Source of the DNA: a virus
Length of the DNA stretch: 43,244 nt
Reading direction: 5' to 3' (one strand)
Virus record (IMG/VR): IMGVR_UViG_3300009448_000014
Location: 1-43,244 of that record
Shown: piece by piece, positions 2,360 to 38,699 of the stretch
How the letters are laid out: each line of letters begins with the position of its first letter
Position numbering within the stretch: the first letter of the stretch is position 1
Made by a program: the position numbers and the translations under genes
Notes under the pieces: generated by a model
Databases searched by the model: none
What the model saw: only the letters and a program-made list of their open reading frames with translations
Told to the model about the DNA's origin: nothing

Positions 2360-2648
2360 ATTAGAAAAATACATATTAGTATATAATATTACAGCATTAC
2401 CAAATATATTATTTGCAAATATAACAAAAGGAAGTGAGCCATTATCATTTAATTCTGAATTATTTATATTGCCGTCAGAAATAAAAGATATACCAATTGA
2501 GTTAAGAATATGTTTATTTAATGAAGAAGGAAATATAGAAGAAATGTCGAGTAGTATATTACCGCATTCGGCCAAAATAATATGTCAAACAGCAGAATTA
2601 AGTGGATTAAGAATAGTAAAAAAATTAATAGATAAATTAGGCAAGTAG
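2352..2648 (+). CDS. Hypothetical small protein, last gene of the left operon
   Basis: A 98-aa protein of unrecognised family. It runs tail-to-tail into the giant minus-strand gene, overlapping its final 12 bp. No terminator fits between the two convergent genes, so transcripts from both sides must run into each other's coding sequence or end by another mechanism. Confidence 0.58.
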   Translation: MNKLEKYILVYNITALPNILFANITKGSEPLSFNSELFILPSEIKDIPIELRICLFNEEGNIEEMSSSILPHSAKIICQTAELSGLRIVKKLIDKLGK

Positions 2649-5600
2649 ATTAAAAGAGAGAGAACCATCAGAAGAAGGTTCAAGATCGACATCTTCTTGC
2701 AAATCAGCAATAGTAGAATAATCATCAGGATTATAAGTAGAAGTAGTCAAGACTAAATAGTCAGAGACATGCCCTTCACTGTTATCGGTTTCGGCATCAA
2801 AGTCTTGATAGGCGGCTTCTTGTTGTCTACGGCGACTAATAGATTCATTAACAGCAGAAACAGCTTGAACAGCAGGCAAAAAAGATTGAATAGTATCACT
2901 TAAACTAGCACTCATACTTTCAACACCGCGCATTAATAAACCTGAAATTAAAGTAGAAGAAACTGCACTAATAATACTAGCGCCTATATTACCAGCTAAT
3001 TGTTGACCAGCTTGGTATTTTTTCATATCTAAAGCATTAAGAGAGGGAGCATGTTTAACACCTAAACCATGTTCTGCAATATTTTTACTAAGCCAAGGAG
3101 TTAAAGAAGTATTAAGAACAGCAGCAGTGGTTTCTTGGATAGCAACTTGAGCAATGGCTTGGCCAATATTTTCATCACCATTACGAGAGAGAGCATTTTT
3201 AAATTTAAAGATACCACCTAAAGCAGAAGCGTTCAAAAGACGTTTTTTATATTGAGAGGGATCGAGTTGAGTACTTTCGATAGTACCTGTACGAGCATAT
3301 TGAAAAGAAGTAAACATAGCGCCGCCAAATTGCATTAGTTCATCGGAATCAACACTAGATTCGCTAATAACACTACCGAGAGCGGTTAAGGCAAAAGGAA
3401 TAAATAAATCAAGAGTATTAGAGCCCGAAGTAGAGCTTAGCTGATCAATAGCACTTGTATTTATTTTATTCATAAAAGAACTTCGATTCATAACTGTTTG
3501 AGTTTTACCATGTCGAGATCTACTAACTGCATATTTTTGTGAGTCAGATTCTTGTCTAATTTTGATTTGAGCACTGACTTTTTTCTTCATTTGAGATCGG
3601 TAGTAATTATCAGTTTTTTGATTATGACTAGCATTACCTTTATTAGGTAGATACTGTTTCATTAAAGAATCAAACTGATCCTCATTACCGGCAGCACTAC
3701 GTAAAAATTCTTCACCTAAAGCAACACCAGCTTCAATTTGTTGACCTGTCAAAGTATGAGAACCAGCAGAATCAAGGGCATCTATAAATCCATTACTTAA
3801 TTTACCTTGTAAAGAACCTTCAATATCATCTAATTCTAGAGTAGAGTTAGCGATCAGACGTGCATTAATTTCTTTAAATTGTCGAGCTTCTTCACTAGTA
3901 GAACGAGTAAAGCCACTTTCATTAGAAGTGTCTGTGCCTAACATTGTTTGATAAAGTAATTTAGTGAGATAAGTACTTTTTTGTTGAGGAGTCATCTCAG
4001 TAAATTTTAATTTAATAATGTTACCGTCAGATTTTTTAACTACTTCGACTACATTATCTGTAGCATCTAATAAATGTGCTACAACTCCTTTATACATTCC
4101 TGAAAATATTTCTTGTCCTTGACTATCTAATTTATTTTGAGAGGCTAACTGAGCCATTGTAGTTAACACTTCACTACCAATACTTTCATTAATAGTCTTA
4201 GAAGTTTCTGCGCTAGGTAATTGTCCATTCAACATAGTTCGAGCAATATCTTTACGCATTAAATTCATAACAGTAAACTGTTCCATTTTTTGCCCATCGG
4301 GCCCAAACAATCCTTCTACTTGTTTTTTAGATTGTTCGTGATGAATATCAAACATCAAAGTATATTCTTCTGAACTGATATTTAATTTTTTAGAAACTTG
4401 ATTTAGTTTATCTTTATAGGTTTGAGCAATAGTACCATCATCATTATAAATAGCACTTTCTTCTATTCCTAGATGAGAACCTAAAGCATTTTTATGTTGT
4501 CTATTAGAGTCAAAGGAAGCAGTAGAATGTTCTGATTCAATAATTCCATATTTTTCTTGAATATATTTACCTGCTTCATCAGATTGACTAATAATACCGT
4601 CTTGTGTAACAGAACGAGGACTATTTGTAATAGTATGATGACCTAATTTAGTAGCTAATTGTGCTTTATGATCTCTAGCAAATCCTTTAAGTATTTCATG
4701 TCTACCATCAACAGCCACAGCATCCATTCTAAAAGAAGTAACTAGGTTAGAAATATTTTTAGCTGTGATATTCCTAGCAACTTTTAACAAAGCAGAACTT
4801 TCGTCAGTAATAGAAGTAGTATCTTGTAAGTTAGATTTTTCTTGTGAGGTTAAATCCATACTTTCGGAGTAATGATTTAACATTTGTTTATTATGTTCTA
4901 GACTGCCAAATCTACTTTCAAATTCATTTTTAGATAAGCCACCTCTTCTTCCTTCATTTGTTAAATAATCTAAATCTATTAAAGATTTTAGACCAGGGCC
5001 TGGGCCCAAATTACTAGCCATTTGTGCAATAATTTTATCTCTATTAGTTATTAAATCTTTTTTAACTTGTAGATCACCTTCAATATCATCGTGAGCACTA
5101 ATTTGAATAGAAAGTCTATCATATTCGTCAGAAGCTTCTTGCAGTCTTCCCATTAACTTTCCATCATTATCTTTTAATTTAATACTATCTCGTAATAACT
5201 GATGAATATTTTTCATAAAGCCTTGTGTACCCTCAGATTTAAGTAAAGCTTTTTGTGTTGTTTTAATATATTCAGCAAAAGATTCGTAACTTATTTTTCG
5301 TAATTGTTCTTCTACAGCTTTTTTAAATTCAGGAGTACCTTTTTGTAATCCTGAACTAGCGACTTGGGCTTCTATTTCAAGAACTTTATTTGTGTCTCCT
5401 TCGAGTTGCTTTTGGAATTCAGTTTTAGTAGATTTATGTAGTTCACTTTCGGTATCTAGCATTTGGCGACCATAAGTAATAATAGGAGCATCTTGGAAAG
5501 TAGTGCCTATTATTGTATTATAAGTTTTACCTAAAACTTCGCCACCAGCTTTTCCTAAAGTTTTAAGAGTCATATCAAAAGTTCCTTCTGTTAAAGTCAT

Positions 5601-8600
5601 TCCTACACCTTGACCCATAAATTTAGAAAGAGTGGAATCACCTGTAACATCTGCATAAATATTACCTCCAATCCATTCATTCATAAACGCTCTTTTGTTA
5701 AACTCTTTTTGTTTATCTTCGGCTTTTTGTAAATTTTGTAGATTATGTAACCCAGCAGCTTTATTCATTTCTTGCTGCAAAATATTAAATTGTTCTAAAT
5801 AAGCAATATAATTACTATCTGAAGAATCTTTTAAATTAGTAACAAATTGTTTTTGTTCGGGGGTAAGATTGTCTACATTATTAAGTAAAGTATTTACTCT
5901 ACCTTTTAACATATGGACAGAAGGACTTTCAGCAGAAATTTTTCCTTCAGAAGATTTAATCAAATTAACAGGATCAACTAATTCTTCTAAGAAAACTCCT
6001 TTTCTAAAAACATCTGGTTGAGATTTATAACCTAACAATGTGTCGAGGCTATTCATAATACCTAAGATTTTGCCTTGATTAGAAGCAACACCTTCCATTA
6101 AGTTATATCCTTTTTCTAATAAAGCACTAAGAGCGTCAGCATCATAAGTTTTAACACTATTAAATCCTTTTTCTGCAACTCCGTCCTCATCCAAGATTAA
6201 TTTACCTTTATTGTCATACATTAATTCATCTTGAGATACAAAGAATCTTTCATCAATTCCCATGTAATTAGCAACTTGTTTACGAGCTCTAGATTGAAAT
6301 GATTTATGCCCGTCACTTAATTGTTGATCTAAATCTCGTTTAGTTTTATTAAACTCTTCGGTGTCAGATAATAACAATTGTTCTTTTTCAGCACGTGTTG
6401 TTTTTAATTCATCTAAGCGGGCTTCTAATTTTTCTTTTTGTTTTAACTGTTTGGAATTAGAAGGATCTAATGATGCAATTAACTCTTGGTATTTATTTGT
6501 TTCAGAATTTAAATTATCAATCATTAATTTATGTTGATCCATTTTACCCTTATAACTCCGCCTAGCTTGCTGAATGTTTTGAATTTGATGAAATACAACA
6601 GTATAAGGATCTCCATCAAAGTCTCCTCCACCTAAGGTGACTACCCCTAATGAAGCCATCATTGTAGCTGTTTGTCCTCGTTCAGTAGAATAAAGCATTT
6701 TATCTGAACTTCCAATTTCTTTATTATCAGACAACATTGCCGAATATTGATTAAGAGCAGCAACACCTTGCATAACTCTATAAGTATGAATGCGAGGATC
6801 TGTTTCTCCTGGAGGAGGAGATCTAAATACTTCAGCTAAATGAATATTAGCTTTATCTACCTCCGCAATTTTCATATCTATATCCTCAAATATTTGTCTA
6901 ATATCTTGTGGAGAGGGGTTTAGTTGTGACATTATTTGAGCTTTTTTATTACGTAAAAAGTCAACTACTTCTTTATTAAGAGAAGTATATTCTGAAGTAG
7001 CCGTATTAATTTTATGACGAACTGCATCTGAAATTACAAGATTTCCTTCTATATCTTTTTGAGTAGTATGTACTTCTCTTTCTACAGAGAATTTATCCAT
7101 TTCTTGTAGTTTTTTTTCATACATTTCAATAGTCGTATCTATTTGTTGTACAACATATTGAGAACCAACTAAGTTAGATTCTTTAGTAAAGCCCAAAGAG
7201 CGTAATTCAGAAAAAAGAGAAGCAATAGTTTTCATATGCTGACCTACTAAGCCGCCACTTTCGTCTATTGATTTATTAGTAAATAAAGCGCTAGGAGGGA
7301 GATTAGATTGTTTTTGGCTTAAACCTACAAAAGTTGCAGAGCCCTGTTTATCTTCAAAACTATTTAACAAAAATTCAACTTTATTTATTTCTTTTCGACG
7401 AGTATTTAAATCTTGTACAACTTGAGCAGAAAGAGGTTCTAAATTAGCTTGATGTCCTATTAATAATAATTCAGTTAACATTACATCATAATTTAATGCT
7501 TGTGCGTGATAAATATATCTATCTGCTTCTGTAGGTAAACGTAAAGAATTTTTGCTATCTTTATTAGATAAACTGCTCCCAGTTTCAAAATTTAAACTTG
7601 CGAGGGAGTAAGCATTGTCTCTTTTAAGTTTAATTTGTTCTTTTAAAGTATCAAAAGCTTTTTGTTTTTCTTCTTGAGGTAGTGTAACTACTTCAACAAA
7701 GTTTATTATTTGATTTTTAACTTTTAAAGCTTCTTTTTTCATATTTTTAAAATCAACTTCAAGAGCTATAGAAATACCTTGAGCTTCTGCTGCTTTTTGA
7801 CGTCTATAAAAATTAGTTAAATTAGTATTAAGAGTTTTTGTATTTGGGTCGTTATCTAGTTGTTGTAATTCTTGTATTTTTAAGTTAGATTGTCGTATTA
7901 ATTCAAAACGTTCTGAATTTTCTTTTATACCCGCTTCATCTAATTTTGTTTGAGATAAAGCAATACTTCCAAAAGGAACTAACAAATTACCAATACCTGT
8001 TGCAGTAAAACCTTGATATTTATTTTTACCTGCAAAAGCTTCTTGTGTAAAAGAATTTGCGGATGTTTTTGCAAGTTCTAAAGGCATCATACGTGCACTA
8101 TCCATAAGAGAAGCCATGGATTTATATTCTTCAGTACTTAAAATAATTGCTCTATTCTCTCTAGAGGCTATCCTTACTTTTTCAAATGCAGTATTGGCTA
8201 CTGTGCCTGGAACAAATATAGCTGACAAATTGGTATAGTGTTTTAATACAAAGTCTGTAAATTCTCCATAAGTAGTACTCAAAACGGCCATTTCTTGTGA
8301 ACTAGGGAGAATAGTAGAAATTAAACCTTTGCCGGAAGTTCTGGTAACAATTTCTCCATTTTGCATTTCAAAATCTAAGTCAGGAACACTAAAAAACATT
8401 TGGCTATTTTTTACGTTATTTAATAAAGTTTCGGCAGTAGCTACTCCTTTTGACTTAGAAGGGTCTGCTTGATATCTAGCATTTTCTTGTGACATCATAT
8501 TAGTCAATTCATTTAATTGATGTAATGCAAACTTATCTCCGCCTAATAGCAAGTATTGATCTAAAAGACGAGCTTTTTCTAAGTCACTAGCACCTACGTG

Positions 8601-11600
8601 AAACTTATCAATAAATTTCGTGACTTGTTTATAACTTATTGAATCAATATCTTCTAAATTTTCTAGTTTAGTAAAATCATCGATATCTCTTTTAGTTTGA
8701 AAAGATTCCCAATCATAATCACCTTTAAGTAATGCTTTATTTATAGCTTTATATTGTTTAACAAAATGATCAGTAGTAACACCAGATACTCCTTTTTGAT
8801 AAAAACCTAAGAATTTTTGTTTATTAAAAGAAGTAAATAAATAATCATTATCTGAACTTGTTAAATCAGCAGCTTGTTTTTCGCCAAATTGTGATTTAGC
8901 CATACTATCATAGAATACTAAACCACTAGTAGTACCAGTAACCATAGCAGTAATGCTTCCAATTGTATGTTGAATACTACTTAATTTACCTTCTTTTTGA
9001 TACTTTTGAATATCTCCTAAAAAAGGAGTTATTAAGTGTTGAGCTTCATGTCGTCCTACAGACTGAGTACTAGTAGGATCTTTAGAAGAAGAAAATACAA
9101 TATCTGTAAATACTGCAATAGTAGCGACACTAGAGTTCACACCACTTAAAAATTGCATAATATCATCTGTATCTTCATTTTTCAAATCTTTGTTACTACC
9201 AATTAAAGTTAATAAAATATCTTTAACTTTATCATTATCAAAATCGACATCAGAAGGTATACGCAATTTACTACCTTGACTAGTAACTTGATGCATTAAA
9301 TCCACAGCAGTTGTTATTAATGCAGCCTGCTGATCTGCTTTATTATTAAAGTTAATACCGCCTATTGCATTTGCTCTTTTTGAAACAGGATCTAACATAC
9401 CTCTTTTAACTAAATTTAGCAAATGGGCACTTTCTGCAGTATCCCCCGCCAAAACTTTTTCTAAAGAAGTACTTGAAATTGCATTAAGTGCGCCTAAACT
9501 AAGAGAATTAAATCCAACTTGATTTCCAATTTTAGAATAGAGTAAATCTCCTGTAATTTCTTCGCGGCTTCTTCCTTCTCTTAATGTTTTATTATTAAAT
9601 ATTTCATCAACTCTACCCCCTAAAGTTCTAGTAGTTTCTAAAGCTACTCGTTGATAATGACTACCAAATTCACCTTTAATCATTTCATTAATTAAAGATC
9701 TTTTTAAATTAGTAATACTACTTTGTTGGGAAGGGTCTTTATTTTCTAGTAAAAAATCTGTGCCAAAATTAACAAGAAGAGCTGCTACTAATTTTTTAGC
9801 ATTATCTTGAACAATATGTTTTTCTGTATTAAATAATCCTTCTAATATAAAATTAGATTGTATACCTTGAGCATTCTGTTCTTGAGCTCTTAATATTGTG
9901 GCGCCATGTGACCAGAAAAAAGACTTAAAATTATTAGCATTATACAAACCATGAATACTAGAAGATAAAGGAGCATATCCAGTTCTACCGTCTTGTAATG
10001 TTACTCTTTGAGTTTCATCTCTAAAGTCTAAATAAGATTTTAAAGAACCTTTTATTTCTCCTTTATTGTAGGATTCTAATATTTGCTGCTCAATATTTTC
10101 AAACACATTCATTTCTTTATGTACTAAAGAATTATTTTGTATTTGAGCATATTTAATCCTACCTGCAAAAACAGCAACTGCTTTAATTAAAGCACCACTA
10201 TCTGTTCCTTCTACACGTCTACCTGAAGCAGAATTTATTGCTTCTATTCTATCAAAAGTAACTAAGTATTCATTATTAGCAAAATTGCCTGCTCGATTTT
10301 TAACGCCATAAATATAATCAATAGAATTTTCACCTTTACGTCCATAAGTAGAAATAGTAGAAGAACCTAGTCCCGGTGTGCCTACTTCTGAAAATCCAGT
10401 CCGATCTACTACATTTTTTATAGCCTGAACATTTCTACTATCATCTACTTGTCCTATTATTTGCCACTCACCTTCTACTTTTCTTTTATGTACAAAACTT
10501 CCTGTATCTTTATCTTCAACAATAATATCGTCTGCTTGTAATAATACTTCTATGCCTCCTGCTCCTATTAAAGAACTTTTTATACTTTTTTGTTGAGTAT
10601 TATACTGCCCTTCTTTTATTCCTAACGTATATACTCCTTCTTTTTCTCTATCGATCGCTGATAAACTTTTATCATAAATATCTAACCCTTTTTCTCTTAA
10701 TTCTTTATATTTCTCTTTAGAAGTATAAACTGTGCCATATAAAGGGTTATTAAGAGAAGTATCATTATAAGTACCACTTAATTGAATTAAAGCAATGCTG
10801 TATTTCATATGATCATTGCCAGCAATCATTTTGCCTAAACCTTTATTAGTTAGACCTGCTTTCAAGACTTCAACTCTAAGTAATTCATCTAAAACATTTT
10901 GATCTAATTGTCCTTCTTCAATTAAATCGCCCATAGCGTCTTGTAATCTATTTTTTGTGGCAGTAATAAAATTAACTTGTTCTTGATTTAAAACAGATTT
11001 AATTCGTCCAGAAAAAACAGCACCTAAACCTGCTACTTTACTATTAAAAGCTTTAGCCCCAATTATTTTTAAATCATCAATCTGGCTATCTATTTTTAAA
11101 ACTTTAGAAGAATCTTCTCCATATAAAGAAATTAAATTATCTCTTTTATTAAGTAAAGCCTCTACTTTACTTTTAGAAGCGGCTAAAAGAGGTTGTCTAT
11201 ATTGTTGTAAATAACTATCAGATAAATCAGTTAAACTTTCTCCTCTTTCTAACGCCATTTGTGCGTCAATGCTAAAAGAATACATAGGTCTAGAACCCAT
11301 TGCATTTTTAATACGTTGAGGTAATTGAGAAAGTTTTTTCTGAGAACCTGTATAAAAGCTAAGCCTAATAGTGTCTTTTCTAGCGTCACTATCTAACGAA
11401 CCAAATTCAGAAGCAACGCTTTCTAAATAATTTTGTCGAGCAGTACTAAGAGCAGTAGGATCAGAACTAGAAGCAATCATTACTTGTCTCATTGCTTCAA
11501 ATATTTCTTTTTGGTTTGCGCCTATTTCTAAGTCTCCTTGTTGGTTCTTAATAATAAAATCATCTCTAACTAAAGTAGTTCCTATACCTATAGAAGACAT

Positions 11601-14600
11601 TAATCTTAAATTAGCGGCATCTCCCAAATCTCGAGCTTCACTCTGTAACATTAAAGAATCTAAATCACTAGAATTTTTAGATAAAGAAGTAGATTTACTA
11701 GCAATACTTCTATATAAAATATCGTGTATATCTGTTAAAGGATTATATTCTAAAGGTTTAAATCTAGCGTAAGCTTTTAAATTATGTAAAGAATTATTAT
11801 TTTCATCTAGATCCAACATTAATTCACTAGTACGTATATCGGCACTACTATTACCAACACCCATTAACAAAGTTTTATAAAATCCTTGTTGACCTCCATA
11901 CGTCCTTTCATCTTTTGTTTGTAAAAAAGACCCAAATAATAAAGTTTGAAATTTGTTAAATGCTTCTTTTTTAGAAGAGGCATTAGAATCTTTATATGCA
12001 GTTTTAACAATCATATTAGCTAATTGAGGAGATTGTTTAGCTAATTCATATACATCATTTATATAAGTATGTACGTCATCTTCTGACATAGTATTATTTC
12101 CTTTTAAATGATGAAACCAAGTATTATTTAAATTCTTTAAAGATTCCGCTACACTATTTTTTTGTTTTCTATCTTCTAGAAGATTTAGACTATTATATAA
12201 ATCAGAATCCATAGTATTTTCTTTACTACGTGTGTGTCTATTTATAGTTTCATTTAAATCTTGAAGAGAAATTAAATTTAAATTATCTTGTATTTGTTTC
12301 ATAGATGAAATTATATTAGAACCACTGTCTCTACTTTCATCTATTTGTGTAGAGTACCCTGTTAAAGAAATAGCGACATAATCTAATAACAATTTTTGAA
12401 CTGATTCTCTATTAAAACTTCCATTAGAAAGACTATTATCAAATATCTTCATACTGGACTTAGTGCCAAATCTACTAAGAGCTTCTCCCATTAAAGTAGC
12501 AAATAATTGAGGAACTAGATCTAAAGAACTCATATGAGCACTTTGTCCACTTTTTAAAGTCACTCTACCTTTATTTAAATCGGTTTCAGCATCATCTTCA
12601 TAATTACGGCGACCTAAAACAGAAATACTATTTCCACTATCATTAGTAAATAACCCGTTACCCACTATTCTATTTTTATCTACAAAATAAACAAAGCCAG
12701 GAATATCTTTGCTACTACTTTCATTAAATAAAGCTTTTTCTGAAGAAGGTCCCGATAAAACACTTAATTCAAAATTCAATTTAGGTAAATTAGACGAAGG
12801 CGACATAAACTCAGTAGATTTCATTACTTTATTCATATCAATAGATACGTTAATAGAAGTTAAGCCACTTCCACTTTTATCTCCATATCTTTCTATAACA
12901 CTAAAAACATCAGAAGATAACCCTAACTGAGTTCTCATTGTTTCTAATCTTTTCTTTAATACCATTAAATCTTTTGTATTAACATTGTCTTGCCAAATAG
13001 GCGCGTTATTAAAAGATTTAAGTTGAGGATTAATAATAGAACTACGTGCTAATTGATTCCAAGTAGTAGAAAAATGTTGTTGAGCTAGCATTAATTCATG
13101 AGTTTCTTCTTCTTGATTTAATGCCCACTCATTTACAGAATTAGATAGCATATTGTTAACTGTCGCAAACTCAGGAGAAACACTTAAGTTATCAGAAGAT
13201 CTTCTACTTAAATTAGTATTAATATCTCCTCGACCTAACATAATACCAAACTCTGTATTAGTTAAATTTCCATCTCCTTCTAAATATTGTCCATTTTTCC
13301 CAGAACCTATTCCTAAAGAATATAAACCCATATTAGAAGAACCTTGGTAGTAACTAATAAGGGTAGGATCTTCTTTTGTTGCATCATATTGGTATAGTGC
13401 TGCACCTTTAGCATGTTGTCTAGGAACGTTAGCACTTTCAATATTCCCACTAGCTATTCCAATTATTTGTTTGAGATCACTGTCGTCAAAACCACTTTTT
13501 TTAGTAAAGCCTAACCTTCTTAATTCTTTAAACATAATATTAAGAGAAGTATCGTACTCTTTACTATCTTTAGAAGCAGAAGGTTTAAATAAATCAAACC
13601 CAGCCATTATTGATAAACTTTGCCCATATTTTTCAAAATTAGATACAAGTTTTTGATTTTTTGCTATATCAGTATTTTTAACTTTTTCATTAATCTTTTC
13701 AAGTAAAGGATTCATTACTTGTTCTCTATAATTTTTAGCATCAACTACTACGTTTGCTTTATCTGCTATTAACAAATCAAATAATTTATTTTGTTGAATT
13801 TGATATTGTTCCGTTTGTTTATCTTTCTTAGAATAAGGAGTTCCTATTTCTTCTCCCATTTCTCCTTTTAATTGTTTTGCAAATGTATTAGAACCTAACT
13901 GAAGCATAAAAGCTTGATCTAATAACATAAACATATGTAAAGAACTAGTACTTTTAAAGTTAACTTTTTGAAATGAGTGAGAAGTATTAAAAGTAGTATT
14001 ATGTGCAAATTCTAGAGTATTACTTAAATGCTGATAAATATCACCAGCAAAACCTAGCTGAGCACCTAATTTATTATTAAGAATAGGAGTAGAAGTATTA
14101 CCTTGTGTTCGATTAAATTCTGACAAAGCGGCGTATTCTTTTTCTTGATCAACACTATCTACTATTTGTCTATATAATAAAGACTGAGTAACTTGGTTAT
14201 TATAAACTTGATTTAGGCCGGCTTGTCCTAAAGAAACAAAGTTACCTCGTGCTTGTTGTAACTCAGTATTATCTTTAAAAGTATTAGTAACAAATCGCAT
14301 AGTTTCAAAATTAGAGCCTGCTTGATTAATACTAGAACCTACAGGAGCTGTTAAGTTTTGAGTACCAAATGCAGCAATATTGTCTGTTAAGTAGATCTTA
14401 GGGTGAAACTTTTTATCTCTAAATTGAATATTTAAATTTACATATTTTCCTATTTCTTCTTTAGCAACGCCTAAGCCTACCAACATATCTTCGACATCAT
14501 GTTTAACTTCTTGAAGTTTCATAGCTTCAATTAAGTTAGGGCCTAAGATACCGTAGTTAGTCATACCTACTGCATATCTTCCGTCTGTGTTTTGTTTTTT

Positions 14601-15776
14601 ATCTACATTTCTTTGTCGAGGATAAGCTAACGTCATATCTATTTCTAGAGGAGCGCCGCCTCCTTGTAATACACTGTTTAAAACATGACGTTGTATTTTA
14701 TCACTTAAAGCTGCACTAATAGTTTCATTTTGGAATTGAAAACTTGTTATAGAAATTCTACCGCCGGTTAAAGCTCCGTTAGAATCCCGAGTGCCTGCAG
14801 AATTTATTAAGTCAACAAATTCGGCTACACCAGCTTTATTAACATAACCGCCTTCAGGACTAACAGAAGTACTAGACCTATTACTTAAATTATTATTTAA
14901 AAGATTTAAAGCTGTATTAGTAGTTTCTAAATCAAAAGAAGTTCTTTCACTTAAAGCTTGTGCTATTACAATGGGGTGATCTTCTCCTCCTTTTAAATCT
15001 ACTTGTCTAGCAAAAGCACTACCTTCTTGCATAACTTTTCTAATGGTAGACCTAGCACTTTTTAAACCACTACCTGTCATTGACATTTGATCAATCATAG
15101 AATTTCCATGAAACCTACCAAATTCAACGTCAATTCTATCCACTATTTCTGTTTGATCATAGATACTTTTATTAACAACGTTATCTAAAACTTTTTCAGT
15201 AACTGTTCTATTATCATTAGTAGGATCAGACATAGCTAATCTAGTTTTATTACTTAAACTTTCACCGCCATCTTCATATTGACCAAAAACATTATCATAT
15301 ATAACTCTAGAACCAAAATAGTCCTCATCATCTTGTACAAATCCATTAGTAAAAGATCTAAATGCGCCTGTTGCCCCACTAGAATAAGAAGTATTAAAAT
15401 CTTGATACATACCTTTACGTTGCACTGTAGAGTTTGCAACAGTCTGTCCTAGGCTAGTTTTGTATGCTCTATTTTGTAATTTTTGTTGAATAGTGCTACT
15501 AGTATCAAATCTTTTATCAATGGATTGTCTTTCATTTTCTACTGCCGCGTTAAATTCATCTCGTAATTCAACAACACTAGTTTCTAAAGCAGAAGCAAAT
15601 TGATCTTTAGTAAAAACAGTAGACTTACCCTCAACTTCTGTTGATGAAAAATCATCAATTAGATTTAACATTGTATTAAATCTAACAGCATTGCCAAGAG
15701 CACTCCGAGAATACTGATCAGTATTTAAAGAATTTTTTATAGCATCTATTCTATTATTAGCGCCTTCTCTTGACAT
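2637..15776 (-). CDS. Giant 4379-aa protein: PLD-like domain plus RNA-polymerase-like DFDGD motif (candidate virion RNAP)
   Basis: One uninterrupted frame of 4379 codons, roughly 480 kDa. Seen: (a) near the N-terminus, H458-x-K460-x4-D465 followed by GTQN (471-474), a phospholipase-D-superfamily HKD half-site. It is preceded from about residue 335 by alternating beta/alpha sequence of the PLD-like type. (b) VFRSPPPGE (R2985) followed by GGGDFDGDPYTVVF (D3052, D3054, D3056) and then QQARR. This parallels the beta' RNA polymerase region with the RxP element and NADFDGD metal-binding loop. (c) An HEAQH (HExxH) at 2243-2247. (d) Hydrophobic helices near the C-terminus. The long charged segment after DFDGD is coiled-coil-like. 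Known: single-chain two-barrel RNAPs with DFDGD occur in crAss-like phages (virion gp66) and Bacillus SPbeta YonO. Inferred: a virion-packaged, co-injected polymerase. I could not identify the partner barrel with its catalytic lysines. A tape-measure or other giant ejection protein remains possible. ATG 15776 has no clear Shine-Dalgarno sequence. Confidence 0.68.
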   Translation of the reverse strand: MSREGANNRIDAIKNSLNTDQYSRSALGNAVRFNTMLNLIDDFSSTEVEGKSTVFTKDQFASALETSVVELRDEFNAAVENERQSIDKRFDTSSTIQQKLQNRAYKTSLGQTVANSTVQRKGMYQDFNTSYSSGATGAFRSFTNGFVQDDEDYFGSRVIYDNVFGQYEDGGESLSNKTRLAMSDPTNDNRTVTEKVLDNVVNKSIYDQTEIVDRIDVEFGRFHGNSMIDQMSMTGSGLKSARSTIRKVMQEGSAFARQVDLKGGEDHPIVIAQALSERTSFDLETTNTALNLLNNNLSNRSSTSVSPEGGYVNKAGVAEFVDLINSAGTRDSNGALTGGRISITSFQFQNETISAALSDKIQRHVLNSVLQGGGAPLEIDMTLAYPRQRNVDKKQNTDGRYAVGMTNYGILGPNLIEAMKLQEVKHDVEDMLVGLGVAKEEIGKYVNLNIQFRDKKFHPKIYLTDNIAAFGTQNLTAPVGSSINQAGSNFETMRFVTNTFKDNTELQQARGNFVSLGQAGLNQVYNNQVTQSLLYRQIVDSVDQEKEYAALSEFNRTQGNTSTPILNNKLGAQLGFAGDIYQHLSNTLEFAHNTTFNTSHSFQKVNFKSTSSLHMFMLLDQAFMLQLGSNTFAKQLKGEMGEEIGTPYSKKDKQTEQYQIQQNKLFDLLIADKANVVVDAKNYREQVMNPLLEKINEKVKNTDIAKNQKLVSNFEKYGQSLSIMAGFDLFKPSASKDSKEYDTSLNIMFKELRRLGFTKKSGFDDSDLKQIIGIASGNIESANVPRQHAKGAALYQYDATKEDPTLISYYQGSSNMGLYSLGIGSGKNGQYLEGDGNLTNTEFGIMLGRGDINTNLSRRSSDNLSVSPEFATVNNMLSNSVNEWALNQEEETHELMLAQQHFSTTWNQLARSSIINPQLKSFNNAPIWQDNVNTKDLMVLKKRLETMRTQLGLSSDVFSVIERYGDKSGSGLTSINVSIDMNKVMKSTEFMSPSSNLPKLNFELSVLSGPSSEKALFNESSSKDIPGFVYFVDKNRIVGNGLFTNDSGNSISVLGRRNYEDDAETDLNKGRVTLKSGQSAHMSSLDLVPQLFATLMGEALSRFGTKSSMKIFDNSLSNGSFNRESVQKLLLDYVAISLTGYSTQIDESRDSGSNIISSMKQIQDNLNLISLQDLNETINRHTRSKENTMDSDLYNSLNLLEDRKQKNSVAESLKNLNNTWFHHLKGNNTMSEDDVHTYINDVYELAKQSPQLANMIVKTAYKDSNASSKKEAFNKFQTLLFGSFLQTKDERTYGGQQGFYKTLLMGVGNSSADIRTSELMLDLDENNNSLHNLKAYARFKPLEYNPLTDIHDILYRSIASKSTSLSKNSSDLDSLMLQSEARDLGDAANLRLMSSIGIGTTLVRDDFIIKNQQGDLEIGANQKEIFEAMRQVMIASSSDPTALSTARQNYLESVASEFGSLDSDARKDTIRLSFYTGSQKKLSQLPQRIKNAMGSRPMYSFSIDAQMALERGESLTDLSDSYLQQYRQPLLAASKSKVEALLNKRDNLISLYGEDSSKVLKIDSQIDDLKIIGAKAFNSKVAGLGAVFSGRIKSVLNQEQVNFITATKNRLQDAMGDLIEEGQLDQNVLDELLRVEVLKAGLTNKGLGKMIAGNDHMKYSIALIQLSGTYNDTSLNNPLYGTVYTSKEKYKELREKGLDIYDKSLSAIDREKEGVYTLGIKEGQYNTQQKSIKSSLIGAGGIEVLLQADDIIVEDKDTGSFVHKRKVEGEWQIIGQVDDSRNVQAIKNVVDRTGFSEVGTPGLGSSTISTYGRKGENSIDYIYGVKNRAGNFANNEYLVTFDRIEAINSASGRRVEGTDSGALIKAVAVFAGRIKYAQIQNNSLVHKEMNVFENIEQQILESYNKGEIKGSLKSYLDFRDETQRVTLQDGRTGYAPLSSSIHGLYNANNFKSFFWSHGATILRAQEQNAQGIQSNFILEGLFNTEKHIVQDNAKKLVAALLVNFGTDFLLENKDPSQQSSITNLKRSLINEMIKGEFGSHYQRVALETTRTLGGRVDEIFNNKTLREGRSREEITGDLLYSKIGNQVGFNSLSLGALNAISSTSLEKVLAGDTAESAHLLNLVKRGMLDPVSKRANAIGGINFNNKADQQAALITTAVDLMHQVTSQGSKLRIPSDVDFDNDKVKDILLTLIGSNKDLKNEDTDDIMQFLSGVNSSVATIAVFTDIVFSSSKDPTSTQSVGRHEAQHLITPFLGDIQKYQKEGKLSSIQHTIGSITAMVTGTTSGLVFYDSMAKSQFGEKQAADLTSSDNDYLFTSFNKQKFLGFYQKGVSGVTTDHFVKQYKAINKALLKGDYDWESFQTKRDIDDFTKLENLEDIDSISYKQVTKFIDKFHVGASDLEKARLLDQYLLLGGDKFALHQLNELTNMMSQENARYQADPSKSKGVATAETLLNNVKNSQMFFSVPDLDFEMQNGEIVTRTSGKGLISTILPSSQEMAVLSTTYGEFTDFVLKHYTNLSAIFVPGTVANTAFEKVRIASRENRAIILSTEEYKSMASLMDSARMMPLELAKTSANSFTQEAFAGKNKYQGFTATGIGNLLVPFGSIALSQTKLDEAGIKENSERFELIRQSNLKIQELQQLDNDPNTKTLNTNLTNFYRRQKAAEAQGISIALEVDFKNMKKEALKVKNQIINFVEVVTLPQEEKQKAFDTLKEQIKLKRDNAYSLASLNFETGSSLSNKDSKNSLRLPTEADRYIYHAQALNYDVMLTELLLIGHQANLEPLSAQVVQDLNTRRKEINKVEFLLNSFEDKQGSATFVGLSQKQSNLPPSALFTNKSIDESGGLVGQHMKTIASLFSELRSLGFTKESNLVGSQYVVQQIDTTIEMYEKKLQEMDKFSVEREVHTTQKDIEGNLVISDAVRHKINTATSEYTSLNKEVVDFLRNKKAQIMSQLNPSPQDIRQIFEDIDMKIAEVDKANIHLAEVFRSPPPGETDPRIHTYRVMQGVAALNQYSAMLSDNKEIGSSDKMLYSTERGQTATMMASLGVVTLGGGDFDGDPYTVVFHQIQNIQQARRSYKGKMDQHKLMIDNLNSETNKYQELIASLDPSNSKQLKQKEKLEARLDELKTTRAEKEQLLLSDTEEFNKTKRDLDQQLSDGHKSFQSRARKQVANYMGIDERFFVSQDELMYDNKGKLILDEDGVAEKGFNSVKTYDADALSALLEKGYNLMEGVASNQGKILGIMNSLDTLLGYKSQPDVFRKGVFLEELVDPVNLIKSSEGKISAESPSVHMLKGRVNTLLNNVDNLTPEQKQFVTNLKDSSDSNYIAYLEQFNILQQEMNKAAGLHNLQNLQKAEDKQKEFNKRAFMNEWIGGNIYADVTGDSTLSKFMGQGVGMTLTEGTFDMTLKTLGKAGGEVLGKTYNTIIGTTFQDAPIITYGRQMLDTESELHKSTKTEFQKQLEGDTNKVLEIEAQVASSGLQKGTPEFKKAVEEQLRKISYESFAEYIKTTQKALLKSEGTQGFMKNIHQLLRDSIKLKDNDGKLMGRLQEASDEYDRLSIQISAHDDIEGDLQVKKDLITNRDKIIAQMASNLGPGPGLKSLIDLDYLTNEGRRGGLSKNEFESRFGSLEHNKQMLNHYSESMDLTSQEKSNLQDTTSITDESSALLKVARNITAKNISNLVTSFRMDAVAVDGRHEILKGFARDHKAQLATKLGHHTITNSPRSVTQDGIISQSDEAGKYIQEKYGIIESEHSTASFDSNRQHKNALGSHLGIEESAIYNDDGTIAQTYKDKLNQVSKKLNISSEEYTLMFDIHHEQSKKQVEGLFGPDGQKMEQFTVMNLMRKDIARTMLNGQLPSAETSKTINESIGSEVLTTMAQLASQNKLDSQGQEIFSGMYKGVVAHLLDATDNVVEVVKKSDGNIIKLKFTEMTPQQKSTYLTKLLYQTMLGTDTSNESGFTRSTSEEARQFKEINARLIANSTLELDDIEGSLQGKLSNGFIDALDSAGSHTLTGQQIEAGVALGEEFLRSAAGNEDQFDSLMKQYLPNKGNASHNQKTDNYYRSQMKKKVSAQIKIRQESDSQKYAVSRSRHGKTQTVMNRSSFMNKINTSAIDQLSSTSGSNTLDLFIPFALTALGSVISESSVDSDELMQFGGAMFTSFQYARTGTIESTQLDPSQYKKRLLNASALGGIFKFKNALSRNGDENIGQAIAQVAIQETTAAVLNTSLTPWLSKNIAEHGLGVKHAPSLNALDMKKYQAGQQLAGNIGASIISAVSSTLISGLLMRGVESMSASLSDTIQSFLPAVQAVSAVNESISRRRQQEAAYQDFDAETDNSEGHVSDYLVLTTSTYNPDDYSTIADLQEDVDLEPSSDGSLSFNLLA
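6609..6623 (-). other. DFDGD motif, candidate RNAP catalytic metal-binding loop
   Basis: Codons for residues 3052-3056 of the giant protein. The flanking sequence GVVTLGGG before and PYTVVF after has the strand-loop-strand character of a double-psi beta-barrel. In cellular beta' subunits the three Asp of NADFDGD hold the catalytic magnesium. Chance occurrence or a calcium-binding DxDxD loop cannot be fully excluded. Confidence 0.65.
14355..14405 (-). other. PLD-superfamily HKD-type motif
   Basis: Residues 458-474 of the giant protein read HPKIYLTDNIAAFGTQN, giving H-x-K-x4-D then G-T-x-N. This is the phosphodiesterase signature of the PLD superfamily (Nuc-type nucleases, PLD-like domains of helicases and restriction enzymes). 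Only one copy was seen, so activity would require a dimer or a diverged second half. Confidence 0.68.
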
Positions 15777-15876
15777 ATGTAATCTTATATAGTGTAATAT
15801 ATAAATATAGTATACCTATATTTTAATTAATAAAAGAAGTGATACTATAAGCAAAATAATTATTTATAAAAAACAT
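15777..15876. promoter_or_regulatory. Divergent promoter region between giant gene and head operon
   Basis: A 100-bp AT-rich gap between divergent ATGs, so it should hold start sites for both the giant gene and the head module. On the minus strand a TATACT box lies at 15814-15809, about 33 bases upstream of the giant ATG, with only a poor -35. On the plus strand a TATAAG-like box is near 15845. Neither matches consensus well, so phage-specific or middle/late promoters are possible. Confidence 0.35.
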
Positions 15877-16233
15877 ATGTTTAGTTGTAAGTTACCTAGT
15901 GGAATTGACATCTCAGTAAATCCGCCTTCTTTTCAGGATAGAATGGAAGCTGTAAAAGAATTTAGATCTGTTAAAGACGAGGTAGGATATACAGTAGAAG
16001 AATTAATGGCTGCAAAATGTATTGTAGCTGTTAATGGTAATGTAGTAGATACAAGAATGATGTTAGACCCTGTTCTTTTAGTTGCTGAATGGCCTAATGC
16101 TGATGTTCAATATTATATTGAATGGTTTATGACTTTATTTTTCCTTGATGATAAAATCCGAGATAAAGCAACAAACGAAGCAAAAAAGATAATGATTGCG
16201 CAACAAACAGACAAAGTTTCCTTGAAGAAATAA
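15877..16233 (+). CDS. Tail assembly chaperone-like protein (short product of frameshift pair)
   Basis: A 118-aa protein. It carries a conserved-looking core (EELMAAKCIVAVNG, then a proline-free DVQYYIEWFMTLFFLDD helix) that reminds me of the short tail assembly chaperones that coat the tape measure during tail assembly. Codons 103-104 form the heptamer A AAA AAG (16182-16188), the same slippery site used by E. coli dnaX. The -1 frame is open from 16167 through the stop of the next gene at 16706. Unshifted ribosomes make this protein; shifted ones make a longer fusion. Family assignment is moderate because it sits beside the portal rather than after the tail tube. Confidence 0.6.
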   Translation: MFSCKLPSGIDISVNPPSFQDRMEAVKEFRSVKDEVGYTVEELMAAKCIVAVNGNVVDTRMMLDPVLLVAEWPNADVQYYIEWFMTLFFLDDKIRDKATNEAKKIMIAQQTDKVSLKK

Positions 16234-16706
16234 GTTGTCATAATTTAGAATTAATGCACATGAGGAGTATTTCATATATTGTTCATGGGCAATCTAAATT
16301 TTACGCACAGAATGTAAGCTTAATTCCTTTATATAATAAAATATTCGTAGATAACCGTGCTAAAACAAAACCAGAAGGATTTGAAGGACGGAATTGTAGT
16401 TTGGATCCAGACTTATTTATCTATAGAAATAATTGGATTGAATATAATGCCCAGGCTTTATGTTCTGCATATGAGTTAGATAACTTTATTTCTATGAATG
16501 GAGGTATAGCTAATTTAACTAATACTGAGTGGATGACTATGGATTTGTTTTTAAGAGAAGCTTATAAGTTAGCTTACAATAAGTACGCTAAAGATGAAAA
16601 CCAAAAACAACATAGAATGCAAGCAGATTTAGAACAAAAAATGGAAGCATCTAAAGAGTATAAAAGCCCTTTCAGCGGTATAACAAAACCTACATTCATA
16701 AATTAA
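15877..16706 (+). CDS. Predicted -1 frameshift fusion, tail assembly chaperone G/GT type
   Basis: Joining codon 104 (AAG ending at 16188) to the -1 frame (next codon GAT at 16188-16190) gives an uninterrupted 276-aa fusion ending at 16706. Lambda gpG/gpGT and equivalents in most long-tailed phages are made this way at a fixed ratio. Here the slippery heptamer, the overlap of open frames and the gene order within the pair fit that scheme. I did not find a strong stem-loop just downstream. The alternative is independent initiation of the second gene at 16254. Confidence 0.6.
16254..16706 (+). CDS. Downstream partner of the frameshift pair
   Basis: A 150-aa frame beginning at ATG 16254, but the same frame is open back to 16167, 67 bp inside the preceding gene. 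No Shine-Dalgarno sequence precedes the ATG, which favours expression mainly as the C-terminal part of the fusion. The sequence has aromatic-rich segments followed by a charged, Gln/Lys-rich helix (about residues 105-140) and no recognised domain. It ends 14 bp before the portal gene. Confidence 0.55.
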   Translation: MHMRSISYIVHGQSKFYAQNVSLIPLYNKIFVDNRAKTKPEGFEGRNCSLDPDLFIYRNNWIEYNAQALCSAYELDNFISMNGGIANLTNTEWMTMDLFLREAYKLAYNKYAKDENQKQHRMQADLEQKMEASKEYKSPFSGITKPTFIN

Positions 16707-16720
16707 TTATATAAAGAGAT

Positions 16721-18337
16721 ATGCCTGATAGTAATTTTTTAGATGAAGCAGCTAGTTCAATAAAAACTCAGCCATACGAAAAAGTAAACTTAGTAGAAAA
16801 ACCCTTGGGAGCTTCTGCAATAAAACAGCGTCCTGCTCAATATGGTCAAGTTGGGTTGGCTACATCTTATGTTTCTACAGGTGAAAACTTTATACCTTTA
16901 AGAAAACCTCATTATTATCAATTAGCAGCTTGGGATCGTGCAAGACTAAAAGAACCAATCATTAAAAATGGTATGGAAAAATTAGTCTTGTATATCTGTG
17001 CCAAAATAGGGGATTATCATCACCCAAATAGCATGATTGAAGATTTTGTTAATGCTAATATTGACGGTCATATTAAAAGATGGATTCAAGAAATAAGTAA
17101 AAGTGCTTATTGGTCTGGATTTGGAGTATCAGAAGTACTATGGAAAAAGAAAGCAGGACCTAATTTAATTAGACAAATTTGGATTGAAGATTTAGTTAGT
17201 TATCATCCAACTCAAGTGCAGTTTAAATTAGATGACTATAGTAGATTAAGCCATGGTAATTCTACAAGTTCTTCTGAATTAAAAAGTGGTATTTGGGTTC
17301 CTGCTCCTAGTATACTAAAATCTCGTAAAATGGATAAAAATTTTACAGGGGGAATGGTAAGGTTAGAAAAGTCTAAAGTATTTCATGTGGCTTTTTTTGG
17401 TAGTAGTAATAATCCATGGGGAGAGTCTCAATTAAATTCTGTAGTAGATTATCATTTATTTAAAGAAGCTTTTAGAGACATGATGGCAGTTGCTTTAGAT
17501 AGATATGGAACTCCTTTATTATATGCAATTGTACCTCCTCAAATAACTAATGAAGTAATTACAGAAGAAGACGGTACAGTAAGAAATAAACAATATAGAG
17601 AAAGTGTAACAGAAGCTCTTCAGGATGTAAGAGGTAATCAAGGTATTGTGTTAGAACAATTAAGTAAAGATTACCCTGTTCAAATAGGAACATTAACTAC
17701 TGGTAATAATTTTGCAGATGCATTTGATCAAGCAATTAAATTATGTGATGCCAATATGATGATTGGTATGGGTATTCCTAATTTAATTATGAGAGATGAA
17801 AATGGTGGTTTAGGTAGTGGTAGTAGTGCCGATAGACAAGTGGAAATGTTTAATTTATTAGTTGGACAATATTTTAATCAAGTTACTACTGCTTTTACTA
17901 ACCAAATAATTAATCAATTAATTTCTTATAATTTTGATCCATATACCGTAAAAGATATTCATAAAAATGGTGTTATTTCTGAAATTCCTTTAAGACCTAC
18001 AGAAATAGAAACACTTGTTAATTCTTTTAAAGATTTAACAAAACTTGGATATATGAATGCAGGATCTCAAGAAGATTATAACTATGTTAGATCTATGCTT
18101 AATTTACCTCATAAAGAAGTAGATGAATATGCTAAAGATATAAACAAAGTAATAACACAACAAACTTCTCAGCAAGTTGCTAAAGATAATGTTCAAATTA
18201 AAAGGGAAGGAATTGCATCAAAAGAAAGAATGAATAAACTAAAACTTACAAGTACTAAAAAAACAAACGCACAATCAATTAACACTAATACATTAGTTCC
18301 TACGATTCTCTCTAAAGAAAGGAGTACTCCTAAGTAA
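16721..18337 (+). CDS. Portal protein, Mu gp29 / DUF935-like
   Basis: A 538-aa protein. The portal forms the dodecameric ring at the head vertex through which DNA is packaged and ejected. Diagnostic stretches are a helical segment ending in YWSGFGVSEVLWKKK (about residues 128-142), then FFGSSNNPWGESQLNSVV and a helical LFKEAFRDMMAVALDRYGTP segment. These match the 'close to host DNA ring, go down one side' pattern of Mu-type (DUF935) portals. The length is typical. The Gln/Lys-rich C-terminus from about 470 is probably disordered. The gene begins the core head block, with fibre-like genes and the protease following. An AAAGAGAT element just precedes the ATG. Confidence 0.8.
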   Translation: MPDSNFLDEAASSIKTQPYEKVNLVEKPLGASAIKQRPAQYGQVGLATSYVSTGENFIPLRKPHYYQLAAWDRARLKEPIIKNGMEKLVLYICAKIGDYHHPNSMIEDFVNANIDGHIKRWIQEISKSAYWSGFGVSEVLWKKKAGPNLIRQIWIEDLVSYHPTQVQFKLDDYSRLSHGNSTSSSELKSGIWVPAPSILKSRKMDKNFTGGMVRLEKSKVFHVAFFGSSNNPWGESQLNSVVDYHLFKEAFRDMMAVALDRYGTPLLYAIVPPQITNEVITEEDGTVRNKQYRESVTEALQDVRGNQGIVLEQLSKDYPVQIGTLTTGNNFADAFDQAIKLCDANMMIGMGIPNLIMRDENGGLGSGSSADRQVEMFNLLVGQYFNQVTTAFTNQIINQLISYNFDPYTVKDIHKNGVISEIPLRPTEIETLVNSFKDLTKLGYMNAGSQEDYNYVRSMLNLPHKEVDEYAKDINKVITQQTSQQVAKDNVQIKREGIASKERMNKLKLTSTKKTNAQSINTNTLVPTILSKERSTPK

Positions 18338-31747: not shown

Positions 31748-32539
31748 TTAACTATTTAAGATTTCTAAATATTTAGAATAGTTACGTTCGAGACGTAAGC
31801 CTTCACTATCTTTATATAATTCGTGCAATATTTTCAATAATCCATGTTTATATATAGTTATACGATAAAGAGTCCTAGAGGTATAGTGTAGAGAAGTTAT
31901 GTTAAAGGCATTAGCGCCATATAAAAGTTTTAAATTATCATTAAAATCAGATAAAAACTGATAACAACTAGAAGTAAAACTAAGTTCATATTTATATTTA
32001 TGTTTATTAATAAATAAACAACCATCGCCATCCAAAAAACCACGTATAAAATGGGAATTATTAAAAAAATCTAACCACATTTCATTACCAGTTTTATTTA
32101 AACATAAGCCTTTATTAACTAAATAAGCATAAGCATATTTATATTGCCAAGTGAGGGAAACAGTGTTTTGTCCTGTCTTTTTATTTATATAATATTTAAT
32201 ATTATTTTTAATACATAATTCTTTTTTTATAATTTGTAAAATTTGTACATCTTGTTTTAGAATATTGCAGCGTAACTGAACGTGAGGAGAAACGGAACTA
32301 TCTGCGACTAAAAAGCCTAAACTATACAATTCACCGTTGGTTAAAGTATGATTTTCTTTTAGTAAAAAAGGTAGTAATTTAGATTCATTAAAGATAGTTT
32401 CACCTTGGCGCATAGCTCCAATAATAGTCTGAGTGCCACAAATACAACATTTTATTTTTTGTCTTTTATGGGATGCAATACCATTTTTAATATATAAAGA
32501 ATAGCCACAATTTAAACACCAAACGTTATCAATATACAT
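31748..32539 (-). CDS. LAGLIDADG homing endonuclease with N-terminal zinc ribbon
   Basis: A 263-aa protein. Two LAGLIDADG-type motifs are visible: LYSLGFLVADS (71-81, acid D80) and FIRGFLDGDG (164-173, acid D172), spaced as in single-chain two-motif enzymes. The N-terminus has C8-x2-C11 and C31-x2-C34, a zinc ribbon that may help bind DNA. Such enzymes cut a defined site and spread their own gene. Here the gene is free-standing, on the strand opposite to sheath and tube, and sits in the intergenic space between them. Both catalytic acids are present, so it looks intact. Confidence 0.87.
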   Translation of the reverse strand: MYIDNVWCLNCGYSLYIKNGIASHKRQKIKCCICGTQTIIGAMRQGETIFNESKLLPFLLKENHTLTNGELYSLGFLVADSSVSPHVQLRCNILKQDVQILQIIKKELCIKNNIKYYINKKTGQNTVSLTWQYKYAYAYLVNKGLCLNKTGNEMWLDFFNNSHFIRGFLDGDGCLFINKHKYKYELSFTSSCYQFLSDFNDNLKLLYGANAFNITSLHYTSRTLYRITIYKHGLLKILHELYKDSEGLRLERNYSKYLEILNS

Positions 32540-36983: not shown

Positions 36984-38699
36984 ATGAGTTTATTTGATAA
37001 TCCTAATGACATGCAATGGCAAAGTCAAATAAATAACTTTAGACGTAGTAGTAATGAAACATTAATAGGAAAGATTGTGGATGAGCATGGGGATGGAAAT
37101 TATCGTGATAATATGTTTCAAAAATATACTGTAGAGTTATTAGGATGGGGCCAAAAACTTTATAATTGCAAAGTTAAAATTGATAGTGCGGGGTATAACG
37201 GAACAGGAGATTATAGAACATTTAAAGAGGGAGACGGAGTATTAATTCAATGTAAAGAAGGTCAACTAGACGATGCAATAATTATAGGAAGTCATAGATT
37301 AAATGGAGACCTTAAACAATTAGAACAAGAAGGACAAGGACAAAAGTTTGGGGAACATTATACAGGAGCTAAAGGAAAAATTGCAGCATCGTCGCCGCCG
37401 TCACTTCATCCAGGTAGAGTAACTAAAGTAGAAGGAAATGTTTTTATTGGGGGAATAAATAATGCTAGAACATCATTTGAAGATCCGGCTCAAATAGGAT
37501 CAGAAAAAGATTGTTTAGATAAACAGCCTATTCCAGGAACATATAAAGCAATTACTAAAGAAGGAGTAGATGTTAATTACTCTTATGGAGGAACATTACA
37601 TATGACGGATGGTAATTATGTAGTGCTTTCATCAGGTACGCGACAAAATAAATGTACTAAATATTTAGAACAAGCCTCACGTCATAATAAAATTGCAAGT
37701 TACTTAGAAGGATTATCTACATTTGTTTCTAGTGAATATAGAAAAGGGGCTCAATTATCTACATTTTTAGATAGTGAAGAAGATTTAAATTTAGACACAA
37801 AAACAAACACTAATTTTTCAATAACAAATGAAACAAATTTAGTAGATTCAGTAACAGGTAAACCTTTTAATTCAACTAATACTATAAATAAAGAAGTTGA
37901 TGAAAGTAGAAAAAGTACTAATGTTGTAGATAAACTACAAGATACAGATGAAGTAGAAAAGCCAGAATCTGAGCAAGAAACTAAATTTGCAATTAAAGCA
38001 ACAGATAATAGTTATAGAGCTACTAAGCATAAACAATTAGCATTAATTGCTAAAAGTCAAGCAGAAGAGTGCAATACTACTAGTGCAGCGTTTCAATATT
38101 CTTCCGCAATAGTAGGTGCTATTACAGGTACGGCAGCTCCTGCGCAAACATCGGTAGCGCCTGCACAAAAAGTAGGCCATGTAGATCCTAATAATTATTC
38201 TAGTAGAAACACATCTAATCCAAAGCCGCCAGTAGAGTTTGTAGGATGTCATGCTAATAATTATTCTAAAGAAACACATGTTTTAAAATATTTAGTGATG
38301 CATCATTCTGTAGAAAATATGGAAAAAACTATAGAGCTTTTCAATGATCCTACTAGAAAAGCATCTGCACATTATGGAGTAGATAAAGATGGAAAAATAC
38401 TTCAATTTGTAAAAGACCTTGAAAAAGCTTATCACGTAGGGGGACAAAATACAGGCAAAATTGGTATAGAAATAATTGCTACTGAACCTAATCAAGGTAT
38501 GTCAAAAGAACAAGAAGAAAGTTTAATTAAATTAAGTAGGTTTATTGTTTCTACTTATAAAATCGCATTAACTAATGTAAAAGGACATAATGTATTTAAT
38601 CCACCTACCCCTACTAATAAAGGTACAGAGTGTCCTACGTGGGTATTTCCTACTCAAGCTAAATTAGAAGAATGGGCTAATAAATATTTAAAAGTTTAA
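36984..38699 (+). CDS. Tail spike (gp5/gpV-like) with C-terminal amidase domain
   Basis: A 571-aa protein. The N-terminal 110 residues look like the OB-fold of gp5/gpV spikes (IGKIVDEHGDGNYRDNMFQKY, FKEGDGVLIQC, DDAIIIGSH). A polar linker region (about 230-410) follows. From about 435 there is an N-acetylmuramoyl-L-alanine amidase-2 domain: MHHS (H440), HYGVDKDGKI, AYHVGG, IGIEI, GH (H535) and ECP (C550). H440, H535 and C550 give the expected His-His-Cys zinc set, so it should be active. The spike would cut the peptide-glycan bond of the wall during injection. It opens a tightly packed operon running to the window end. Confidence 0.82.
   Translation: MSLFDNPNDMQWQSQINNFRRSSNETLIGKIVDEHGDGNYRDNMFQKYTVELLGWGQKLYNCKVKIDSAGYNGTGDYRTFKEGDGVLIQCKEGQLDDAIIIGSHRLNGDLKQLEQEGQGQKFGEHYTGAKGKIAASSPPSLHPGRVTKVEGNVFIGGINNARTSFEDPAQIGSEKDCLDKQPIPGTYKAITKEGVDVNYSYGGTLHMTDGNYVVLSSGTRQNKCTKYLEQASRHNKIASYLEGLSTFVSSEYRKGAQLSTFLDSEEDLNLDTKTNTNFSITNETNLVDSVTGKPFNSTNTINKEVDESRKSTNVVDKLQDTDEVEKPESEQETKFAIKATDNSYRATKHKQLALIAKSQAEECNTTSAAFQYSSAIVGAITGTAAPAQTSVAPAQKVGHVDPNNYSSRNTSNPKPPVEFVGCHANNYSKETHVLKYLVMHHSVENMEKTIELFNDPTRKASAHYGVDKDGKILQFVKDLEKAYHVGGQNTGKIGIEIIATEPNQGMSKEQEESLIKLSRFIVSTYKIALTNVKGHNVFNPPTPTNKGTECPTWVFPTQAKLEEWANKYLKV

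Follow-up and report, generated by a model that had tools for sequence, protein, structure and literature searches.

The 43,244-nt stretch of viral DNA analysed here (the window) encodes, on its minus strand at 2637-15776, an intact and open 4,379-aa reading frame whose product is probably a single-chain two-barrel DNA-dependent RNA polymerase (RNAP) carried in the phage particle; we infer both its activity and its packaging from the features described below. The proposed chain would begin with a PLD-type phosphodiesterase domain, continue with an RNAP core and end in a pair of hydrophobic segments. Within the core, a first barrel (DPBB-A, with R1854 and K1865) would precede a second (DPBB-B, with a metal site formed by D3052/D3054/D3056) and a bridge/trigger-like block. 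A first-pass annotation had reported the giant frame and its DFDGD motif, leaving the strand unstated, and had read the product as a single-chain two-barrel RNAP of a contractile-tailed cyanophage. Conservation of the Asp triad and of the preceding RxP motif, together with an in-register alignment to the virion RNAP gp96 of phage P23-45, supports that core reading, and nothing in our data contradicts it.

The gene is a homologue of Ma-LMM01 gp080 (YP_851094.1), as judged from the open frame, a match to phrog_31006 (E 1.6e-44) and tblastn matches to Fukuivirus and a Microcoleus phage. gp080 resembles the giant protein in gene place and domain order; it differs in being 3,562 aa long, the same length as the 3,562-position phrog_31006 family, and is annotated as a hypothetical protein, with a UniProt entry that names a PLD domain only. 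Among 50,697 phage records, tblastn matched only Fukuivirus genomes and Microcoleus phage My-WqHQDG, and three scans of IMG/VR supplied further members. A scan with one giant protein alone found no viral relatives, and none turned up in one scan of contigs from bacterial and archaeal genomes. The relatives form an unnamed family of giant phage proteins (complete ORFs of 3,058-4,790 aa, gp080 included). We aligned 17 of them over their full length; they are ∼ 20-30% identical overall and share 110 near-invariant columns spread over the whole chain. On one contig (L015:2652-10633) the giant gene lies in two frames, which may reflect a real break or an assembly error.

Plus-strand neighbours of the giant gene encode portal, major head protein, tail sheath, baseplate and lysis proteins, and several of them match Ma-LMM01 families. 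The window is therefore a 43-kb stretch from a cyanophage with a contractile tail and kinship to Fukuivirus, which bears out the earlier assignment to a contractile-tailed phage, apparently of cyanobacteria. An AT-rich intergenic stretch (15777-15876) separates the giant gene from a divergent operon of two small genes and the portal gene (15877-18337, plus strand; portal phrog_113, E 5e-32). The same two small genes and portal adjoin the giant gene in nearly all relatives for which flanking sequence is available; most have the divergent arrangement, whereas the Microcoleus type has a co-directional one, in which the giant gene is inverted with respect to the portal operon yet remains adjacent to it (L003:1-7869 versus L002:7701-18389). 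Because the inverted gene stays beside the operon, selection seems to act on linkage and not on a shared divergent promoter.

The motif DFDGD (residues 3052-3056; 6609-6623, minus strand) and the upstream RSPPPG (residues 2985-2990; 6807-6824, minus strand) both fall within the candidate DPBB-B (residues ∼ 2975-3070; 6567-6854, minus strand). GGGDFDGDPYTVVF, FRSPPPGE and IQQAR were all found at the positions first reported for them. D-x-D-G-D is present in 17/17 of these distant members, with only its second residue varying (F/Y/W), and D3052/D3054/D3056 is accordingly our candidate Mg2+ triad; the automatic alignment mis-registers one member (L034) at the motif, but its ORF does contain DFDGD. 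The R of RxP and the following G are kept in nearly all members (RxPxxG). Since the triad is universal and RxP..G near-invariant in proteins of ∼ 20-30% identity, DFDGD is not a chance match. Of the Ma-LMM01 ORFs that encode 150 aa or more, just two, gp080 and gp064, contain G-D-x-D-G-D. The layout from RxP to the triad, likened in the first-pass annotation to a β′-type barrel, is shared with the crystallised virion RNAPs gp66 (YRIPNQG...GSDFDID) and P23-45 gp96 (FRNPVMG...GVDFDGD) (PMC10770324). An 81-column profile of this block aligned in register with residues 736-791 of the crystallised DPBB-B of gp96, from RxP through DFDGD, at a weak pairwise E of 0.011 (hhalign). The best local match of the profile in both gp96 and RpoC was their catalytic motif. 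In a set of 85 non-family ORFs the two true RNAPs scored highest, with a small margin over the next. Direct profile scores for DPBB-B are weak by themselves. Against crAss-like gp66, hhalign reached at most the motif (E 0.3 or worse) and gave no RNAP-core profile similarity; PDB sequences searched with profiles of DPBB-B and of DPBB-A returned nothing or coiled-coil noise. AlphaFold produced no confident barrel around DFDGD, and the model there (pLDDT < 50) is too poor to interpret, so it counts neither way. Downstream of the candidate barrel, residues 3381-3611 (4944-5636, minus strand; LGKxYN and QxxRDxIKxK) form a strictly conserved block with invariant G, Y, N and Q, R, D, K, K columns. 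No confident model of this region was obtained; from its conservation and place we regard it as a candidate bridge-helix/trigger-loop region.

The other barrel had been missing from the first-pass annotation. We now propose a candidate at residues ∼ 1650-1965 (9882-10829, minus strand), although no profile match accompanies it. It contains a basic pair, R1854 and K1865 (10182-10217, minus strand), and both residues are invariant in 17/17 members. In Ma-LMM01 gp080 the pair corresponds to R1497 and K1506, and the candidate triad to D2537/D2539/D2541. By eye, the segment around the pair (family GGGRRVE...L.KGV..F) resembles the E. coli β-subunit stretch GDKMAGRHGNKGVIS, which we take to be the stretch around the catalytic lysines. 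Further upstream, KxxQxPQRxKNxxG (residues 1481-1494; 11295-11336, minus strand), in which K, Q, QR and N are conserved in 16/16 of the members that cover it, is a candidate RNAP core element. A model of Ma-LMM01-like residues 1000-2199 is β-rich in the candidate DPBB-A region. All 19 listed VIA-align matches that reached model residues < 740 were to RNAP β/RPB2-type (second-largest) chains, as identified from chain lengths and the usual chain naming of the entries. They came from bacteria, archaea, Pol II, III and IV and vaccinia, with 170-288 aligned residues and Z scores of only 3.7-4.5, values that can arise by chance; the RNAP entries of the PDB are one family, and the 19 matches are not 19 independent votes. 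The remaining 31 listed matches fell on helical bundles elsewhere in the model. We conclude that the structural matches lend moderate support to placing the missing DPBB-A at residues ∼ 1650-1965. Foldseek searches with the DPBB-A model gave no significant match in the PDB and, in a viral library, only Ma-LMM01 gp080 itself below E 0.001. When DPBB-A was compared with RpoB, gp66 and gp96 by hhalign, no match was in register, and Pfam scans of the giant protein, gp080 and the DPBB-A members gave no match to an RNAP family.

The N-terminal part of the chain (residues ∼ 300-850; 13227-14879, minus strand) is a PLD-type phosphodiesterase domain, identified from a 13-member alignment, Pfam and PDB profile matches to PLD enzymes. 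It carries the two HxK motifs with (G/S)xN that characterize the PLD superfamily. In motif 1 (HPKIYLTD...GTQN, residues 458-474; 14355-14405, minus strand) H, K and N are invariant in the 13 aligned members and D nearly so; in motif 2 (HAK...GSSN, residues 788-815; 13332-13415, minus strand) H, K, S and N are invariant in the same members, and Asp is absent at the canonical spacing. Pfam PLDc_2 matched 9 of the 13 (best 4.9e-8), and the best PDB profile matches were to a virion nicking-joining enzyme (E 0.002) and, more weakly, to PLD3/PLD4 exonucleases. Two distant members (L032 and L034) have no recognisable PLD part and keep DxDGD. The domain may act on nucleic acid or on phospholipid. As far as we could find, a PLD-RNAP fusion is unreported for RNAPs. 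It is this domain, overlooked in the first-pass annotation, that makes the architecture unusual, and not the size of the protein, which had been proposed as new: P23-45 gp96, a tape-measure-fused virion RNAP, is larger at 5,002 aa (PMC10770324).

Three features point to ejection of the protein from the virion: near-absence of cysteine, the hydrophobic C-terminal pair and the linkage to the portal gene. The giant protein of the window contains no cysteine and the 17 members together only 4 in 66,338 residues, compared with 0.9% in other proteins of the window and 0.5% in other Ma-LMM01 proteins. Known virion RNAPs are similar (N4, 0 in 3,500; gp96, 0 in 5,002; gp66, 2 in 2,180), although other P23-45 proteins are also cysteine-low (0.19%), which makes the comparison with gp96 less telling. 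Ma-LMM01 encodes a second giant without cysteine, gp120 (L065:27619-36315; ∼ 2,800-2,900 aa), which may be a tape measure or some other protein that is ejected. Because gp120 shares the trait, absence of cysteine may be typical of proteins that are ejected or belong to the tail tube, and not of RNAPs as such. The hydrophobic segments (residues 4124-4142, 3351-3407; and residues 4264-4282, 2931-2987; both minus strand) recur in most members at ∼ 93-95% and ∼ 96-98% of the way along the chain and are rare at other places, the first keeping its relative place in nearly all. We suggest that the protein would sit near the portal in the particle and be threaded with the DNA into the cyanobacterium, where its C-terminus would associate it with the membrane and the polymerase would transcribe the first phage genes while the DNA enters.

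Ma-LMM01 gp064, a protein encoded outside the 43,244-nt window (L066:43811-48832, minus strand, with relatives in L087-L095; 1,673 aa, 24 cysteines, annotated hypothetical), is probably a second two-barrel RNAP, as suggested by its motifs and profile alignments. It contains VPVILMHPDCPMVRMLGVKEGQVIGIQRTPMG...NPLLWQAANEGDADGD (RTPMG ... GDADGD). Similar proteins are encoded in all nine listed Fukuivirus records and in the Microcoleus phage. Of 16 family contigs, mostly fragments themselves, 6 carry a gp064-like ORF, among them the contig of the nearest relative of the phage studied here; those read on family contigs keep R-x-P and GDxDGD. With a gp064-like profile, 80 columns aligned in register to the crystallised gp96 DPBB-B (E 1.1e-4), and NP...GDxDGD was the stretch that aligned to the giant family (E 1.7e-4). 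gp064 itself matched no Pfam family and no PDB sequence. These alignments support, but do not prove, the RNAP reading of the giant protein. gp064 adjoins the early cluster of Ma-LMM01, gp054-gp063 (PMC5780444), and would serve as a non-virion RNAP for later genes alongside the host enzyme. Between gp064 and gp063-gp054 lie six and a half identical 42-bp GC-rich tandem repeats (L066:43271-43551). We searched for a shared early-promoter motif in Ma-LMM01 and found none. The promoters of all classes are reported to be SigA-like, with no phage-specific motif (PMC5780444); this counts against the proposed phage RNAP and argues for the host RNAP doing at least part of the work.

Several other explanations were weighed against a virion-borne RNAP. 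A two-barrel RNAP could be made in the infected cell and left unpackaged, to transcribe middle or late genes. YonO, a single-chain two-barrel enzyme for late phage genes, is a precedent (PMC5467207), and a location beside structural genes is no proof of packaging. This reading is nevertheless unlikely, given that the giant family is nearly free of cysteine like the N4 and P23-45 virion RNAPs, that the protein has its C-terminal hydrophobic pair, and that the separate, cysteine-rich DxDGD protein gp064 better fits a non-virion role. Slightly less probable still is a degenerate, RNAP-derived ejection or tail-module protein, no longer active as a polymerase, whose action would depend on the PLD domain and the membrane segments. 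The conserved PLD motifs and the weak RNAP similarity at the sequence level would suit such a protein; the triad and the R/K pair, however, are the most strictly conserved sites in chains that elsewhere fall to ∼ 20-30% identity, and the two distant members that lack a recognisable PLD domain keep DxDGD.

It is quite improbable that DxDGD is no RNAP site at all and instead belongs, e.g., to a calcium loop, or has arisen by chance in a large structural protein. DxDGD is also found in EF-hand-type calcium loops, and the region around DFDGD gave no barrel model. The motif, however, occurs once per protein in nearly all members and is kept in all, and the best local matches of the block profile in gp96 and RpoC are catalytic. 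The EF-hand reading itself was rejected for the absence of the loop-ending Glu (DFDGDPYTVVFH) and for the context, with RxP before the motif and a hydrophobic strand after it. Least probable, and very much so, is a different two-barrel polymerase such as a PolD-like DNA polymerase or an RNA-templated enzyme. PolD and eukaryotic RdRPs do share the two-barrel active site (PMC10770324, PMC7824862), but the structural matches of the upstream region are to RNAP β/RPB2 chains, and Ma-LMM01 already has an annotated DNA polymerase; the absence of PolD and other two-barrel chains from those matches is not evidence.

The RNAP reading of the giant protein invites comparison with several known enzymes. 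No T7-type polymerase domain was found by Pfam in the giant protein of the window or in gp080. The virion RNAP of N4 has a T7-type catalytic fold, not a two-barrel one, and differs in this from the candidate two-barrel core proposed here. It is alike in being giant (3,500 aa; PMC12633501), encoded in a structural module, devoid of cysteine and ejected with the DNA, as the giant protein would be. P23-45 gp96 is likewise a giant chain; it has DFDGD with RxP upstream, has no cysteine, is encoded in the structural module, and belongs to a phage with a second, separate non-virion RNAP, gp64 (PMC10770324). The gp080/gp064 pair would closely parallel this pair of virion and non-virion enzymes. P23-45, however, is a siphophage, its RNAP lies at the tape-measure N-terminus with a metallopeptidase domain and no PLD, and only ∼ 80 residues, the RxP-DFDGD block, can be aligned with the giant family. 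The crAss-like φ14:2 gp66 (2,180 aa; Drobysheva 2021, as described in PMC10770324) is likewise a single-chain virion RNAP with RxP followed by GDxDxD and few cysteines; according to that description it belongs to a podophage and has the motif DFDID, and our profiles showed no similarity beyond the motif. YonO of Bacillus prophage SP-β (∼ 100 kDa, transcribing late genes; PMC5467207) holds both barrels in one chain, as predicted for the giant protein, and is likened to it by description and not by sequence.

Two lineages, crAss-like phages (gp66) and one group of Thermus siphophages (gp96), are already known to have giant two-barrel virion RNAPs (PMC10770324). What is new here is the family, the tail type and hosts, the PLD fusion and the pairing of candidate polymerases. 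Among the open-access papers searched we found none that names gp080 a polymerase; one Microcystis phage of this kind is stated to lack an RNA polymerase (PMC9927357), and it is an open question how such phages, with no sigma factor of their own, control their three temporal classes of expression (PMC5780444). We see an even chance that Ma-LMM01-like phages transcribe partly with two two-barrel RNAPs of their own, a PLD-fused, virion-ejected enzyme of 3,000-4,800 aa and a non-virion enzyme of the gp064 type, in which the PLD domain would target host DNA or membrane as the phage enters and the RNAP joined to it would meanwhile begin early transcription. If so, the view that these phages depend on host RNAP alone would be overturned. 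A broad candidate family of giant two-barrel RNAPs, fused to a PLD domain and accompanied by a probable second RNAP, would be added in contractile-tailed cyanophages, including culturable phages of bloom-forming Microcystis. Near-absence of cysteine may also be a cheap signature for other ejected giant proteins.

Two further reading frames of the window are unusual. An ORF on the opposite strand between the tail sheath gene and the next tail gene (31748-32539, minus strand) has a Cys-rich N-terminus and GFLDGDGCL, and is perhaps a homing endonuclease. The protein encoded at 36984-38699 combines an N-terminal part that is baseplate-like with a C-terminal part that is amidase-like.
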